Part shown: positions 30,990 to 38,238 of the stretch, one piece after another
Layout of the letters: every line of letters starts with the position of its first letter
How positions within the stretch are numbered: position 1 is the first letter of the stretch
Assembly (NCBI RefSeq): GCF_000384655.1
Contig: NZ_ARQI01000111.1
Location: 1-52,799, forward strand
Direction of reading: 5' to 3'
Source of the DNA: Brachyspira innocens ATCC 29796
GTDB lineage: Bacteria; Spirochaetota; Brachyspiria; Brachyspirales; Brachyspiraceae
Length of the DNA stretch: 52,799 bases
The notes under the pieces: generated by a model
Database searches by the model: none
Told to the model about the DNA's origin: nothing
The model's input: only the letters and a program-made list of their open reading frames with translations
Translations under genes and position numbers: made by a program

Positions 30990-31595
30990 ATGGTAATAGA
31001 AAATGGATTAAATATAGTATCGCCTTCGGAGGCTGGTGAAATTATTAAAAATACTGAAAACGTAGTTATACTTGATGTAAGAACAGAGATGGAGCATAAC
31101 TATGAGGGTATGATTGAAGATTCCGTTTCTATGGATTTCCTTAAGCCTAGAGTATTTAAAAGAGAAATATCAAAACTAGATAAAAATACCCCATACTTGC
31201 TTTATTGTTCTGTAGGGAAATTAAGCATTAAAGCAGCTGAGTATATGAAAGAAGAAGGTTTTAATAATCTTTATGTTTTGGAAGGCGGATTAAAGGCTTG
31301 GAATAAACATTTTGGAGACAGTAATAAGGTTTCTAAATTTGACAGAGAAGAAGCTGTAGAAAGAAGAAAAAGACTTATTATTAGATTAAATAGAATTGAA
31401 GGTCAGATTAAGGGAATGAAAAAAATGCTTGCTAAAGGCGAATACTGCGGAGATATACTTAATCAGTCTCTAGCTGTTAAAGCTGCTATGGGAAGTGTTA
31501 ATCAGGAAATTATGGAAGTATTTTTAAACACCTGTATGATTTCACCTAAAGAGAAGGAAGATTTCTTCAGATATATGAGAAAACTTATAAAGTAA
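30990..31595 (+). CDS. rhodanese-CsoR fusion, probable persulfide-responsive repressor
   Basis: 201 residues in two domains. Residues 10-110 form a rhodanese with Cys73 in YLLYCSVGKLS. Residues 122-201 form a CsoR/DUF156 repressor: RRKRLIIRLNRIEGQIKGM, Cys153 in GEYCGDIL, and Cys182 in FLNTCM. Copper-sensing CsoR proteins have a His four residues before the second Cys; here that position is Phe179-Leu (no His). This leaves a two-Cys pair as in CstR, the persulfide sensor of S. aureus. In CstR systems the rhodanese is a separate protein; here sulfurtransferase and sensor are one chain. AAGGATG precedes the ATG. It follows the CoA-disulfide reductase by 159 nt. Confidence 0.85.
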   Translation: MVIENGLNIVSPSEAGEIIKNTENVVILDVRTEMEHNYEGMIEDSVSMDFLKPRVFKREISKLDKNTPYLLYCSVGKLSIKAAEYMKEEGFNNLYVLEGGLKAWNKHFGDSNKVSKFDREEAVERRKRLIIRLNRIEGQIKGMKKMLAKGEYCGDILNQSLAVKAAMGSVNQEIMEVFLNTCMISPKEKEDFFRYMRKLIK

Positions 31596-31666: not shown

Positions 31667-33022
31667 CTATTTTCCCCATTCATCGGGATTTTTATTCCAT
31701 TCTAATGCTTTATCTAATTCATCTTCTGTTATATAATTTTCATCTTTAGCTATTTCCATAAGAGATGTAAAGTTAGAAAGTGATGAGAATTTTATTCCAG
31801 CCTCTTCAAAATTTTTGTACGCCTTTTCAAACTCATAAGAAAATATAGCTATAATCTCAAGACCGATAGCACCTTCATTTTTAGCAGCTTCAAATGCTTT
31901 TATAGAACTTCCGCCTGTAGATATCAAATCTTCTATTAAGATTAATTTTTTTCCATCACACTCAGCACCCTCTATCTGCTTGCCTCTTCCATGTTCTTTT
32001 TTCTCTGCTCTTATATAGCATAATGGTTTATTAAGTTCATAAGCTATAAAAGAAGCCCAAGGTATTCCAGCTGTAGCAGTACCAGCTATAACATCAAAAT
32101 CTTTATCTTTTAATATACTCACAAAAGCATCAACTATAACCTGTCTGTACTTTGGAAAACCTATAACATATCTATTATCGCAGTATATAGGACTTTTTAT
32201 TCCAGATACAAAAGTAAATGGTTCTTTAACATTAAGTTTAACAGCTTTAGTTTCAAGTAAAGCTCCCGCTATTAATCTTGCTTTTAATTTTTTATTATGC
32301 TCTATACCTTCTGCAATTTCTTCTACAACCATTTTGCATGCTTTTACTCTGTCCTCACTTCTTGTAATAGGTCTTCCTACAACCAAATAATCACATCCGT
32401 TTTCTATAGCTTCTTTCGGAGTCATTATTCTTTCCTGATCATCAACACTAGCCCATTTAGGTCTAACACCAGGGCATACTGTTCTAAAGTTTTCTCCGCA
32501 TTCTTTTTTTATTATACTGGCCTCTTTAGGAGAGCATACCACTCCGTCAAGTCCAGCCTCTTTTCCTAATTTTGCCCAATTAACTGCTAAATCTGTTAAT
32601 GCTAAATTGGAACTGAACATATTTTTTACATCATTTTCAGAAAGACTTGTTAGTATTGTAACGCCTATTATAAGATTATCTTTATTTAATTTTTTTATCT
32701 CCTCAACAGTTCTTTCCATCATCTTTTTTCCGCCGCTTGTATGAACATTAAACATAAATATATTTTGTTTAGCTGCAAAAAGAGAAGCCATAGCTGTAGT
32801 ATTAGGTATATCATGGAATTTTAAATCAAGAAATACCTTTTTATTTTTACTTGCCAAATACTCTATTATTTCCCCTTTAGTGTATAAGAAAAGCTCAAGC
32901 CCTACTTTATAAAATACCGCCTCATCTCCAAGCTCATCTATAAGTTTAGTTGCCTCTCCCATAGAGTTAAAGTCTAATGCTATAATTAATCTCTCTTTTG
33001 GATCATCAGTTAATTTTATCAT
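31667..33022 (-). CDS. pyrFE: bifunctional orotidine-5'-phosphate decarboxylase / orotate phosphoribosyltransferase (PyrF-PyrE)
   Basis: 451 residues. The N-terminal half is OMP decarboxylase, group I: LIIALDFNSM, catalytic LDLKFHDIPNT with Asp-Lys-Asp, and VVGRPITRSEDR. The C-terminal half (from about 245) is orotate phosphoribosyltransferase: AVKLNVKEPFTFVSGIKSPIYCDNR and the PRPP loop LILIEDLISTGGSS. It therefore performs the last two steps of UMP synthesis, PyrE then PyrF. The domain order is ODC-OPRT, opposite to the human UMPS protein. Last gene of pyrK-pyrD-pyrFE; 58 nt after pyrD. Terminator at 31619. Confidence 0.93.
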   Translation of the reverse strand: MIKLTDDPKERLIIALDFNSMGEATKLIDELGDEAVFYKVGLELFLYTKGEIIEYLASKNKKVFLDLKFHDIPNTTAMASLFAAKQNIFMFNVHTSGGKKMMERTVEEIKKLNKDNLIIGVTILTSLSENDVKNMFSSNLALTDLAVNWAKLGKEAGLDGVVCSPKEASIIKKECGENFRTVCPGVRPKWASVDDQERIMTPKEAIENGCDYLVVGRPITRSEDRVKACKMVVEEIAEGIEHNKKLKARLIAGALLETKAVKLNVKEPFTFVSGIKSPIYCDNRYVIGFPKYRQVIVDAFVSILKDKDFDVIAGTATAGIPWASFIAYELNKPLCYIRAEKKEHGRGKQIEGAECDGKKLILIEDLISTGGSSIKAFEAAKNEGAIGLEIIAIFSYEFEKAYKNFEEAGIKFSSLSNFTSLMEIAKDENYITEDELDKALEWNKNPDEWGK

Positions 33023-33080: not shown

Positions 33081-33992
33081 TTATAAATGTGCTGCCCCTA
33101 TTAGGTCTTTTATATTATTTATATTATTTTCTTTAAGATAATTATCTATTCCATTAATAACCTCTATAGGAAGAGTAGGATTTGAAAATATTCCAGCCCC
33201 TATAGAAACCAAAGAAGCACCCGCCATTATAAACTCCAAAGCATCGTTATAATTGCTAATCCCTCCCATACCTACAATAGGTACTTTTACAGCTTTATAT
33301 ACCTGATAAACCATTCTTACAGCTATAGGGCGTATACATGAACCTGATAAACCTCCGAATATATTTCCTAAAAGAGGTTTTCTTGTTTTTGTATCTATCT
33401 TCATAGCCAAAAATGTATTAACTAAAGATACACTATCAGCACCTGCATATTCAGCACTTTTTGCTATACTTGCTATATCAGTTACATTCGGAGAAAGTTT
33501 TACTATTAAAGGTTTTTTATTAAGCACTTTTTTTACATATTTTGTAATGGCTTCAGCACTCTCGCAGCTTGCCCCAAAAGCCATGCCTCCGTTTTTTACA
33601 TTTGGGCATGATATATTAAGCTCTACAAAATCAACTCTTTCTATTTCATTAGCTATTTCAGCTACTTTTACATACTCATCAGTATCAGCACCATTTATAT
33701 TTAATATTATAGGAGAAGTATATTTTATATTTTTTACTATATTATTTTTAAAATATTCTATACCCGGATTTTCAAGCCCTATGCAGTTTATCATTCCAGA
33801 TGGAGTTTCTGCTATGCGTGTGCCTTTATTGCCTTCTTTTTTATTTAAAGTTATTCCTTTTAAGTTAACAGCACCAAGCTCATTAATATCAAAATAATTA
33901 CTATACTCCTCTCCGAAACCAAAACAGCCTGAAGATGTTATAACATTATTTTTTAATTCTTTACCCAAAAAATTTATATTCAATCTGCTCAT
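33081..33992 (-). CDS. pyrD: dihydroorotate dehydrogenase B, catalytic subunit
   Basis: 303 residues, typical class 1B length. VITSSGCFGFGEEY near the N terminus, catalytic cysteine in NISCPNVKNGGMAFG (about 130), PLIVKLSPNVTDI, and the FMN phosphate site GMGGISNYNDALEFIMAGAS followed by VSIGAGIF. It oxidises dihydroorotate and passes electrons through PyrK to NAD+. 15 nt downstream of pyrK. Confidence 0.95.
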   Translation of the reverse strand: MSRLNINFLGKELKNNVITSSGCFGFGEEYSNYFDINELGAVNLKGITLNKKEGNKGTRIAETPSGMINCIGLENPGIEYFKNNIVKNIKYTSPIILNINGADTDEYVKVAEIANEIERVDFVELNISCPNVKNGGMAFGASCESAEAITKYVKKVLNKKPLIVKLSPNVTDIASIAKSAEYAGADSVSLVNTFLAMKIDTKTRKPLLGNIFGGLSGSCIRPIAVRMVYQVYKAVKVPIVGMGGISNYNDALEFIMAGASLVSIGAGIFSNPTLPIEVINGIDNYLKENNINNIKDLIGAAHL

Positions 33993-34007: not shown

Positions 34008-34781
34008 TTAAATATTTAATAATTTAGAATCAAATACTGGTCCGTCATGACAAACTTTTTTTAATGTATATCCGTTTTCTGAATTATTATCTTTTATCTC
34101 TATATTGCATCCCAAACATGCATTAACACCGCATGCCATTCTCTCTTCAAGTGAAGCATAACAAAGTATATTATTCTCATTAGCTATATTTACTATCCCT
34201 TTCATCATAACAGTAGGTCCGCAGGTATATATAATATCAAAATTTTTTTGTTTTAATAATTCTTTTGTTTTATCTACTGTATTCCCTTTATCTCCAACAG
34301 AGCCGTCATCTGTTGTGATGTATAAGTCAATACTACTTGTATCAAATCTTGTTATTATTTTTATAGCCGTTTCATTAGCTCCGCCCATTATTAGAGTTAT
34401 AGAATTATTGTTATAAAGCAATTTTTCTATCAAAAGTTTAAAAGGTGCTATTCCCATTCCTCCAGCTACAAGAAGTATATTTTTATCTTTAAAAGATATA
34501 TCAAATCCATTGCCTAGAGGACCTTGAATATTAAGAATATCATCTTTTTCTAATTGTGATAAATATTTTGTGCCTTCACCCTTTACCTGATAATAAAACT
34601 CTAATATGTCATTATCGATATAATGGAGACTTATAGGACGTCTTAAAAAAGTATTACTTTTAAGCATAAAAAACTGACCCGCTTTTGAATATTTGTAACT
34701 TTCTTTTGATTTTACTTTAATAATATATTTATCATCTGATATTTGTATATTGTCTATTACAACTGAGTCTTCTAAAAACAT
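34008..34781 (-). CDS. pyrK: dihydroorotate dehydrogenase B, electron-transfer subunit PyrK
   Basis: 257 residues of the ferredoxin-NADP reductase type. FAD site FLRRPISLHYI (RxPxS), an LVAGGMGIAPFKLL nucleotide loop, and the C-terminal [2Fe-2S] cysteines CGVNACLGCNIEI...KVCHDGPVF. Pairs with PyrD (next gene) as the PyrD2PyrK2 complex. First gene of the pyr operon, with a leader of about 130 nt that contains an intrinsic terminator (34817-34860). Confidence 0.95.
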   Translation of the reverse strand: MFLEDSVVIDNIQISDDKYIIKVKSKESYKYSKAGQFFMLKSNTFLRRPISLHYIDNDILEFYYQVKGEGTKYLSQLEKDDILNIQGPLGNGFDISFKDKNILLVAGGMGIAPFKLLIEKLLYNNNSITLIMGGANETAIKIITRFDTSSIDLYITTDDGSVGDKGNTVDKTKELLKQKNFDIIYTCGPTVMMKGIVNIANENNILCYASLEERMACGVNACLGCNIEIKDNNSENGYTLKKVCHDGPVFDSKLLNI

Positions 34782-34816
34782 TTTATATAAGCCTTTGATT
34801 ATTAATATTAAATTAT

Positions 34817-34860
34817 AAAAAAAGAATACTTCTTCTCAATAAAGAGAATTTAGTATTCTT
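34817..34860 (-). terminator. leader terminator (putative attenuator) of the pyr operon
   Basis: On the minus strand AAGAATACT...AGTATTCTT (9 bp, with an inner TTCTC/GAGAA stem) is followed by seven T (34817-34823 on the plus strand as A). It lies about 36 nt before the pyrK start codon. With a promoter just upstream, it would stop transcription before pyrK unless antiterminated. It could instead be a leftover terminator, but there is no gene in between to need one. Confidence 0.7.
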
Positions 34861-34916
34861 AAAAAATATATATGCAAAATTTGATATAAAAAGTATAATA
34901 CGTTCCATAAAGATTT

Positions 34917-34944
34917 AATATATCATATATCATTAAAAATTCAA
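34917..34944 (-). promoter_or_regulatory. candidate pyr operon promoter
   Basis: TTGAAT (34939-34944) and TATATT (34917-34922) on the minus strand, 16-nt spacer, giving a leader of about 130 nt including the attenuator hairpin. Confidence 0.45.
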
Positions 34945-35024
34945 GCACGGCATTAAAATAATTTTTTATCAAAAGTGTAATAAGATTGTTATATTTTTAA
35001 TAAAAGTAAAACAAAGGATAAAAA

Positions 35025-35510
35025 ATGAAAAAATATGTTTTTATTATGCTTATAACAGCATTTTTATTTAATTCCTGCCAAAATAATACTACAAAACCTG
35101 ACAGCACTACTTCTGAAAATAATAATGCTGTAAGTTCAGATGCCCAAACTGTATTTGATTTGGTAAACCAAGAAAGAGCAAAGGCTGGACTTGAAGCATA
35201 TAAATTAGATACAAAATTATGCGAAGCTGCCAACAAAAGAGCTCAAGAAATAGTGGAAAAATATGACCATATAAGACCTGATGGAAAAGAATGGGATACT
35301 GTACTTGATGAATACGGATTCAATTCAAAAGCATATACTAGGGGAGAAAATATAGTTGCTAAGCGTGAAAGTGCATCTTCAGCTATGAAAGCTTGGATGG
35401 ACTCTCAAGGACATAAAGAGAATATTTTGGCTGATTATTATACTACAATAGGCATTGGTGTTTATGAATATAATGGAAGCAAATATTGGGTGCAGCTTTT
35501 TTTAAGTTAA
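35025..35510 (+). CDS. CAP/SCP domain lipoprotein
   Basis: 161 residues. Lipoprotein signal with lipobox FNSC (Cys about 19), a Ser/Thr/Asn-rich linker to residue 40, then a CAP domain: VFDLVNQERAKAGLEAYKLD, His and Glu of the CAP pocket in YDHIRPDGKEW and RGENIVAK, then GHKENILADYYTTIGIGVYE. AAAGGA precedes the ATG. CAP lipoproteins occur in many spirochaetes, and the function at the surface is unclear. Its stop overlaps the stop of the convergent gene. Confidence 0.88.
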   Translation: MKKYVFIMLITAFLFNSCQNNTTKPDSTTSENNNAVSSDAQTVFDLVNQERAKAGLEAYKLDTKLCEAANKRAQEIVEKYDHIRPDGKEWDTVLDEYGFNSKAYTRGENIVAKRESASSAMKAWMDSQGHKENILADYYTTIGIGVYEYNGSKYWVQLFLS

Positions 35511-37930: not shown

Positions 37931-38040
37931 AGCCCCTTATAACAGGAGAACTAGCACCCAGTTGGGTTGACTTACCGTTGCTTCCTTCCGAACCTGGCGG
38001 ATTCATCATCAACTGCCGTAGAACCCCGTTATAAGAGATG
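37931..38040 (-). ncRNA. ffs: bacterial SRP RNA (4.5S-type)
   Basis: The apex GTTCGGAAGGAAGCAACGG (about 37977-37997 on the minus strand) carries the invariant GGAAGGAAGCA and CCAGG of SRP RNA. The two ends pair: CTTATAAC near 37936 with GTTATAAG at 38028-38035, giving a hairpin of about 100 nt. T residues follow the 3' end (37921-37930). Cytosolic RNA scaffold for Ffh in co-translational membrane targeting. An overlapping 75-codon frame is spurious. Confidence 0.92.
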
Positions 38041-38065
38041 TATAAAATAAATAAAAACATATATA

Positions 38066-38151
38066 CGGAGAGAGTGGGATTCGAACCCACGGTACTGTTA
38101 CGTACACACGACTTCCAATCGTGCTCCTTCAACCAGCTCGGACATCTCTCC
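38066..38151 (-). tRNA. tRNA-Ser (GGA)
   Basis: 86 nt with acceptor stem GGAGAGA/TCTCTCC, discriminator G, a large variable arm (GTGTACGTAACAGTAC) typical of serine, T loop TTCGAAT, and anticodon loop TTGGAAG giving GGA for UCC/UCU. No CCA is encoded. Sits between tRNA-Arg and the SRP RNA on the same strand. Confidence 0.95.
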
Positions 38152-38164
38152 TGATTAATTTAAG

Positions 38165-38238
38165 CGTGCCTGAGAAGATTTGAACTTCCAACCTTCAGAA
38201 CCGCAATCTGATGCTCTATCCAATTGAGCTACAGGCAC
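38165..38238 (-). tRNA. tRNA-Arg (GCG)
   Basis: 74 nt, acceptor GTGCCTG/CAGGCAC, D arm TAGCTCAATTGGATAGAGC, anticodon stem TCAGA/TCTGA around TTGCGGT with anticodon GCG (CGC/CGU codons), T arm GGAAG-TTCAAAT-CTTCT with one wobble pair. 13 nt from tRNA-Ser, probably one transcript with it and the SRP RNA. Confidence 0.93.

Follow-up and report, generated by a model that had tools for sequence, protein, structure and literature searches.

The closest described systems are the pyrimidine attenuators of E. coli and Bacillus. In the pyrE attenuator of E. coli (rph-pyrE) translation ends only a few nucleotides short of the hairpin, and the translated upstream open reading frame (ORF) is the full rph gene. 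The E. coli pyrBI leader, which served as comparison sequence, shows TATAAT, 7 nt, AATTTG and then the 44-codon ORF pyrL, which runs through the attenuator. According to a passage of PMC6245113, UTP-dependent reiterative transcription operates at pyrBI, and a passage of PMC5021804 presents coupling across pyrL as a means of avoiding termination in E. coli. As stated in one section of PMC4824070, an E. coli terminator which follows a stop codon at short distance is almost completely repressed by the terminating ribosome and acts with full efficiency beyond about 27-30 bp. Among the best matches in the open-access literature, outside of which most subscription papers lie, we found no report of such attenuation in Brachyspira or other spirochaetes.

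Studying a stretch of 52,799 nucleotides from Brachyspira innocens ATCC 29796 (contig NZ_ARQI01000111.1, in the following called the window) reveals a leader upstream of the pyrK-pyrD-pyrFE operon that can be compared with these systems. The leader hairpin is probably an attenuator in front of pyrKDFE, ribosome-coupled and UTP-sensing like those of pyrBI and pyrE. The features of the locus are the following:

31667..33022, minus strand: pyrFE fusion, orotidine-5'-phosphate decarboxylase plus orotate phosphoribosyltransferase (NF001273, 279 bits, and TIGR00336, 132 bits, both above cut-off)
33081..33992, minus strand: pyrD, dihydroorotate dehydrogenase catalytic subunit (NF005574, 395 bits, above cut-off)
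34008..34781, minus strand: pyrK, dihydroorotate dehydrogenase electron-transfer subunit (NCBIfam PRK00054 models, best 211 bits, just below the cut-off of 219)
34792..34796, minus strand: AAAGG, presumed ribosome-binding site of pyrK, from the sequence
34813..34908, minus strand: leader ORF of 31 codons plus stop (MERIILFISNFAYIFFKNTKFSLLRRSILFL) across hairpin and T tract, presumably translated, start position identical in 18 of 18 aligned loci
34817..34823, minus strand: seven-T tract of the intrinsic terminator, the seven T invariant in 18 of 18 loci
34822..34860, minus strand: terminator hairpin with outer stem AAGAATACT / AGTATTCTT and inner stem TTCTC / GAGAA, eight outer-stem pairs formed in all 18 aligned loci, a ninth in 13 of them
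34917..34944, minus strand: predicted promoter of pyrK-pyrD-pyrFE with -35 box TTGAAT, a 16-nt spacer (of this length in all 18 aligned loci) and extended -10 element TGATATATT

On the minus strand the -35 box TTGAAT occupies 34944-34939 and the -10 box TATATT, within TGATATATT, 34922-34917; pyrK starts with the ATG at 34781. Divergent from pyrK lies a YkwD-like gene, probably encoding a lipoprotein (35025-35510, plus strand), whose promoter is probably located within the same 243-bp intergenic region as the pyrK promoter. At 30990-31595 (plus strand) a single protein is encoded in which a rhodanese domain (residues 12-106) is followed, at 126-190, by a metal-sensitive repressor domain of the CsoR/RcnR type, each scoring above the Pfam cut-off; it is a sulfurtransferase joined to what may be a persulfide or metal sensor. 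At 37937-38238 (minus strand) lie two tRNA genes and, after them on that strand, a small bacterial SRP RNA.

That a hairpin with seven T lies between the promoter and pyrK had already been noticed in the first-pass annotation, and it is confirmed by folding, by shuffling and by the comparison of loci. The hairpin region folds with -14.6 kcal/mol, which is equalled by one of 200 dinucleotide shuffles (z -3.5); the fold of the full 135-nt leader is unexceptional (22 of 200 shuffles as good, z -1.3). A simple terminator scan of the region did not report this hairpin, because its stem is AT-rich and contains an interior loop, while the scan requires three or more G-C pairs in the stem and a loop size of 3-8. 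In the consensus of the aligned loci two-sided changes are found at four of the 13 pairs, and the conservation of hairpin and T tract exceeds chance.

The pyrK search matched in all 26 Brachyspira genomes, but in one of them (G012) only distant paralogues were hit, which left 25 upstream regions to be read. At 18 of these 25 loci promoter, hairpin and T tract occur together. A 19th locus (L024) carries a diverged version, with a similar hairpin, upstream of which the sequence differs, and a 41-codon ORF which passes through the hairpin and reaches the pyrK start. The attenuator architecture of the pyrK leader is therefore well supported, and with it, as far as architecture goes, the earlier suggestion of attenuation. 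The remaining six loci (L018-L023) have no convincing terminator, L018 showing only a hairpin of -6.1 kcal/mol beside the start codon. They belong to the genomes G001, G013, G016, G010, G011 and G003, and in L019-L022 another gene directly precedes pyrK. Five of these six genomes retain the pyrB leader described below (G003 has no pyrB match), and it seems that in this group the switch is missing from pyrK alone. Judged by eye, different lineages have different genes upstream of the cassette, which itself remains next to pyrK.

The best promoter consensus match in the region, with 11 of 12 positions, overlaps the hairpin (TTGAGA 34839-34834, TATAAT 34817-34812). If this were the true promoter, the hairpin would never be part of the leader RNA. 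However, in the aligned loci its TATAAT is found in three of 18, its TTGAGA in two of 18 and the complete promoter in just two of 18. We rejected this inner promoter because the locus comparison favours the upstream one (18/18 vs 2/18), and consider it very improbable that transcription starts there.

According to the earlier annotation no gene lies between promoter and pyrK. This is probably wrong, as the 31-codon ORF at 34908-34813 occupies just this place; in the window its stop codon lies past the T tract. In all 18 loci the leader ATG is located exactly 8 nt 3' of the -10 box. From this conserved distance we infer a transcription start near the AUG, so that the pyrK transcript may be leaderless, beginning at or just 5' of the leader AUG. 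The pattern TGNTATAWT-N8-ATG matches at two further places in the window, both inside genes and thus uninformative about a leaderless habit. Across the 18 loci the ORF varies between 9 and 31 codons. It reaches into the hairpin in four loci, and ends 7-14 nt short of it in 13 and 25 nt short in one (L005), so that by position it overlaps the hairpin or ends at most 14 nt from it in 17 of 18. In seven of the 18 loci the gap between ORF and hairpin is 13-14 nt, and 13-14 nt is the edge of the stretch which a ribosome covers. The length of the pyrK ORF does not exceed chance: in eight representatives of the 18 loci, 157-1003 of 2000 shuffles were equally open. A codon test covering five codons is weak (p 0.20 for amino-acid differences, p 0.02 for BLOSUM), with 18 loci of which nine are distinct, and with permutations that count related sequences as independent. 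The C-terminal part and the length of the ORF are altered by frame-shifting indels.

In the own genome, pyrB and carA show the same layout of promoter, ORF and terminator as pyrK. The gene pyrB could be found in 24 of the 26 Brachyspira genomes, and a hairpin with T tract lies upstream of it in 24 of 24 loci (-13.2 to -22.5 kcal/mol). In all 23 tabulated loci an ATG ORF of 31-64 codons, preceded by AGG or GGA, extends into or past the terminator; followed to where the 3' arm ends, frame 0 stays open in 18 of the 23 loci, frame 1 in none and frame 2 in one. The 24th locus (L099) has a 33-codon ORF which ends in the hairpin and, by eye, no AATTT. In the other 23 of 24 loci AATTT is placed six nt 3' of the -10 box, invariant while most neighbouring columns are variable, and is the predicted transcription start; this start was located by the AATTT pattern, which was thus selected, but the fixed 6-nt distance to the -10 box was not. 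Over the first 14 codons, variable columns number 5, 4 and 10 of 13 each at the three codon positions. Amino-acid differences as few as those observed occur in 0.05% of 2000 column permutations (2.5% for BLOSUM), based on 18 of the 23 loci (17 distinct), with clade B (four of 23) treated separately, L098 omitted and relatives counted as independent. For the four loci of clade B the result is weaker (p 0.08 for amino-acid differences; p 0.02). The pyrB leader is accordingly, by its pattern of substitutions, under what looks like coding constraint, strong in clade A.

The carA gene was found in 22 of 26 genomes, again with a hairpin and T tract upstream in 22 of 22 loci (-14.3 to -21.8 kcal/mol). 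In each of the 22 the longest ATG ORF of the stretch has its end within or past the hairpin, and the other two frames are closed within 13 codons. The coding signal is weak (p 0.03-0.05, from 10 and 5 of the 22 loci, with related sequences counted as independent) and there is no bias towards the third position (4, 8, 8 and 7, 9, 10 variable columns). By eye, a small stem is seen upstream of the terminator in the carA leaders L100-L119, read as CTGC...GCAG in most, as GTGC...GCAC in L103 and as CTGTTAACAG in L116-L118, which looks like compensatory change. Looked at by eye for the codon runs of an amino-acid-type leader-peptide attenuator, the leader peptides of pyrK, pyrB and carA have no run in common, though that of carA is rich in Lys and those of pyrK and pyrB in Ile and Phe. 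No such leader was seen in the 350 nt upstream of the uracil permease gene, also read by eye.

The T fraction of the pyrK leaders is 0.44, compared to 0.40 upstream of the promoter, and that of the pyrB and carA leaders is 0.47 and 0.335, respectively. This modest T content weakens the case for a common UTP-pausing signal, and the signal at carA may differ. T tracts are present: in four of five pyrB representatives a T6 stands at +31 of the leader, and T4-T6 tracts are found in five of five pyrK representatives. UTP-sensitive transcript slippage, which had been offered as a mechanism, fares differently at the two genes. At pyrK no slippage start (one or two purines followed by a run of three or more T) is conserved, the T run before the ATG being broken in L009 (TTCC), whereas the AATTT at the predicted start of pyrB is of the slippage type and conserved in 23 of 24 loci.

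Alternative pairing of the leader RNA was looked for in two ways. The RNAalifold consensus of the pyrK leaders contains the terminator only, with no second stem-loop or antiterminator. For pyrB it likewise gives only the terminator in clade A, and upstream stems are predicted in the four leaders of clade B; the carA leaders keep a small extra stem of three pairs. In 14 representatives we also asked, against 100 shuffles, how well the 5' arm pairs with the sequence upstream of it. Among the pyrK leaders, L004, L008 and L025 stand at 4-6 of 100 shuffles and L001 and L014 at 58; among those of carA, L104 and L116 stand at 1-2 and L100 and L106 at 25-37; the five pyrB representatives range from 18 to 58. 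An alternative antiterminator was dropped as inconsistent across representatives for pyrK and pyrB; in carA one may exist. The search for antiterminator pairing in the pyrK leader, proposed along with the first-pass annotation, therefore gave nothing in the consensus and inconsistent upstream pairing of the 5' arm.

A PyrR-bound leader was the other mechanism considered at the outset, together with a search of the genome for pyrR. Such a gene is indeed present elsewhere in the genome, encoding a protein of 175 residues (NF003549, 190 bits, cut-off 138), and strong PyrR matches were obtained in 22 of the 26 Brachyspira genomes. The pyrR gene (L040) is located on the strand opposite to flagellar-type genes (fliL/fliM-like by eye), and no other pyr gene was seen near it within the 3.1 kb read. 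A PyrR-dependent attenuator, in which PyrR with UMP would bind the leader RNA and promote the terminator as in Bacillus, could be expected from the presence of the protein. However, the PyrR RNA element RF00515 scores above cut-off in none of the 26 Brachyspira genomes (two of 14 control genomes have it), an Rfam search of the window gave nothing above cut-off, a permissive RNA scan of the region (to E 10) did not find it either, the pyrK consensus offers no second stem-loop or antiterminator, and PyrR matches are strong also in all six genomes without the pyrK terminator. The PyrR-bound leader is left without support by these scans and we regard it as unlikely, even though there may be a PyrR target unrelated to RF00515 and outside of it. 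In the RNA scan a PyrC_leader match at 34994-35020 was dropped, as it reaches 19.7 bits against a gathering threshold of 50 and lies upstream of the promoter. PyrR may have been kept as a salvage uracil phosphoribosyltransferase, because no upp (PF14681) match exceeds the cut-off in this genome; PyrR itself gives the best match below the threshold.

The leader ORF and the corresponding pyrB and carA leaders point to ribosome-coupled attenuation, and two further explanations have to be weighed against it. The hairpin might be an unregulated or insulating terminator which merely dampens pyrK transcription or blocks read-through into the operon, and its AT-rich stem and moderate strength (-14.6 kcal/mol) would suit this. 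Yet the conserved promoter of the operon itself lies upstream of it, the upstream neighbours vary by lineage, as far as can be judged by eye, and the same layout is repeated before pyrB and carA, so that we find this explanation improbable. An attenuator which works without the ribosome, through an untranslated UTP-sensitive leader or an RNA-binding factor, would agree with the weak coding signal of the pyrK ORF, the T tracts, the extra carA stem and the upstream stems predicted in the four clade B leaders of pyrB. The exact position of the ORF start and the coding signal of the sister leaders speak against it, and we judge it to be, if anything, a little less probable still. Ribosome-coupled attenuation itself has to accommodate several observations: at pyrK an ORF length within chance and a weak five-codon signal, the 25-nt gap of L005, gaps of 13-14 nt in seven of 18 loci and six of 25 loci without convincing terminator; at pyrB the weak amino-acid test of clade B; at carA changes without third-position bias; and further a 5' arm which in some species pairs upstream more than in shuffles, and the presence of the PyrR protein.

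What sequence comparison supports is the promoter, the fixed position at which the ORF starts, the hairpin and its T tract, the sister leaders and the coding constraint on pyrB. Beyond this we infer that the pyrK ORF is translated, that its translation is leaderless, that the ribosome suppresses the terminator and that UTP is the signal. RNA polymerase would initiate at about 34910-34908 and produce a leader RNA rich in A and U, on which a ribosome would start the leader ORF at the extreme 5' end of the transcript. With scarce UTP the polymerase would be slow on the U tracts and the ribosome would stay close behind it, cover the hairpin's 5' arm and thereby let the polymerase read into pyrK. 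With plentiful UTP the polymerase would outrun the ribosome, the hairpin would form at the seven T and transcription would end. The same device before pyrBC and carAB would make up a regulon of three operons.

A wider reading, which we put forward only tentatively, holds that carAB, pyrBC and pyrKDFE are all under ribosome-coupled, UTP-sensing attenuation which evolved independently of E. coli, including the AAUUU start of pyrB, and that at pyrK the leader peptide is leaderless, with 70S initiation on the bare 5' AUG setting the switch. If this is true, UTP-sensing coupled attenuation is not a speciality of enterobacteria: a spirochaete genus, too, controls its pyrimidine genes in this way, in cells which have PyrR yet in which no known PyrR RNA element is seen. 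It would further predict tight coupling of ribosome and polymerase in Brachyspira, for the measurement of which these leaders would be natural reporters, and would offer a system in which leaderless leader peptides can be tested.

Compared with the known systems, the Brachyspira leaders share with the Bacillus PyrR attenuators (RF00515) a terminator in the pyr leader and a PyrR protein encoded in the genome, but the PyrR RNA element scores above cut-off in none of the 26 genomes and the pyrK consensus has no antiterminator. The E. coli pyrE attenuator is similar in that the stop codon comes shortly before the hairpin in 13 of the 18 Brachyspira pyrK leaders, although an ORF of 9-31 codons takes the place of the full rph gene. 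With E. coli pyrBI and PyrL they have in common the promoter, the leader ORF and the intrinsic terminator before pyrB, with the ORF running through the terminator, and the AATTTG just after the -10 box of pyrBI resembles the AATTT of Brachyspira pyrB. The Brachyspira pyrK leader differs from pyrBI by its shorter ORF, the 8-nt gap between -10 box and ATG and the lack of AATTT. The likeness to pyrBI is one of layout, known here from sequence, and in Brachyspira this layout is found on three operons.
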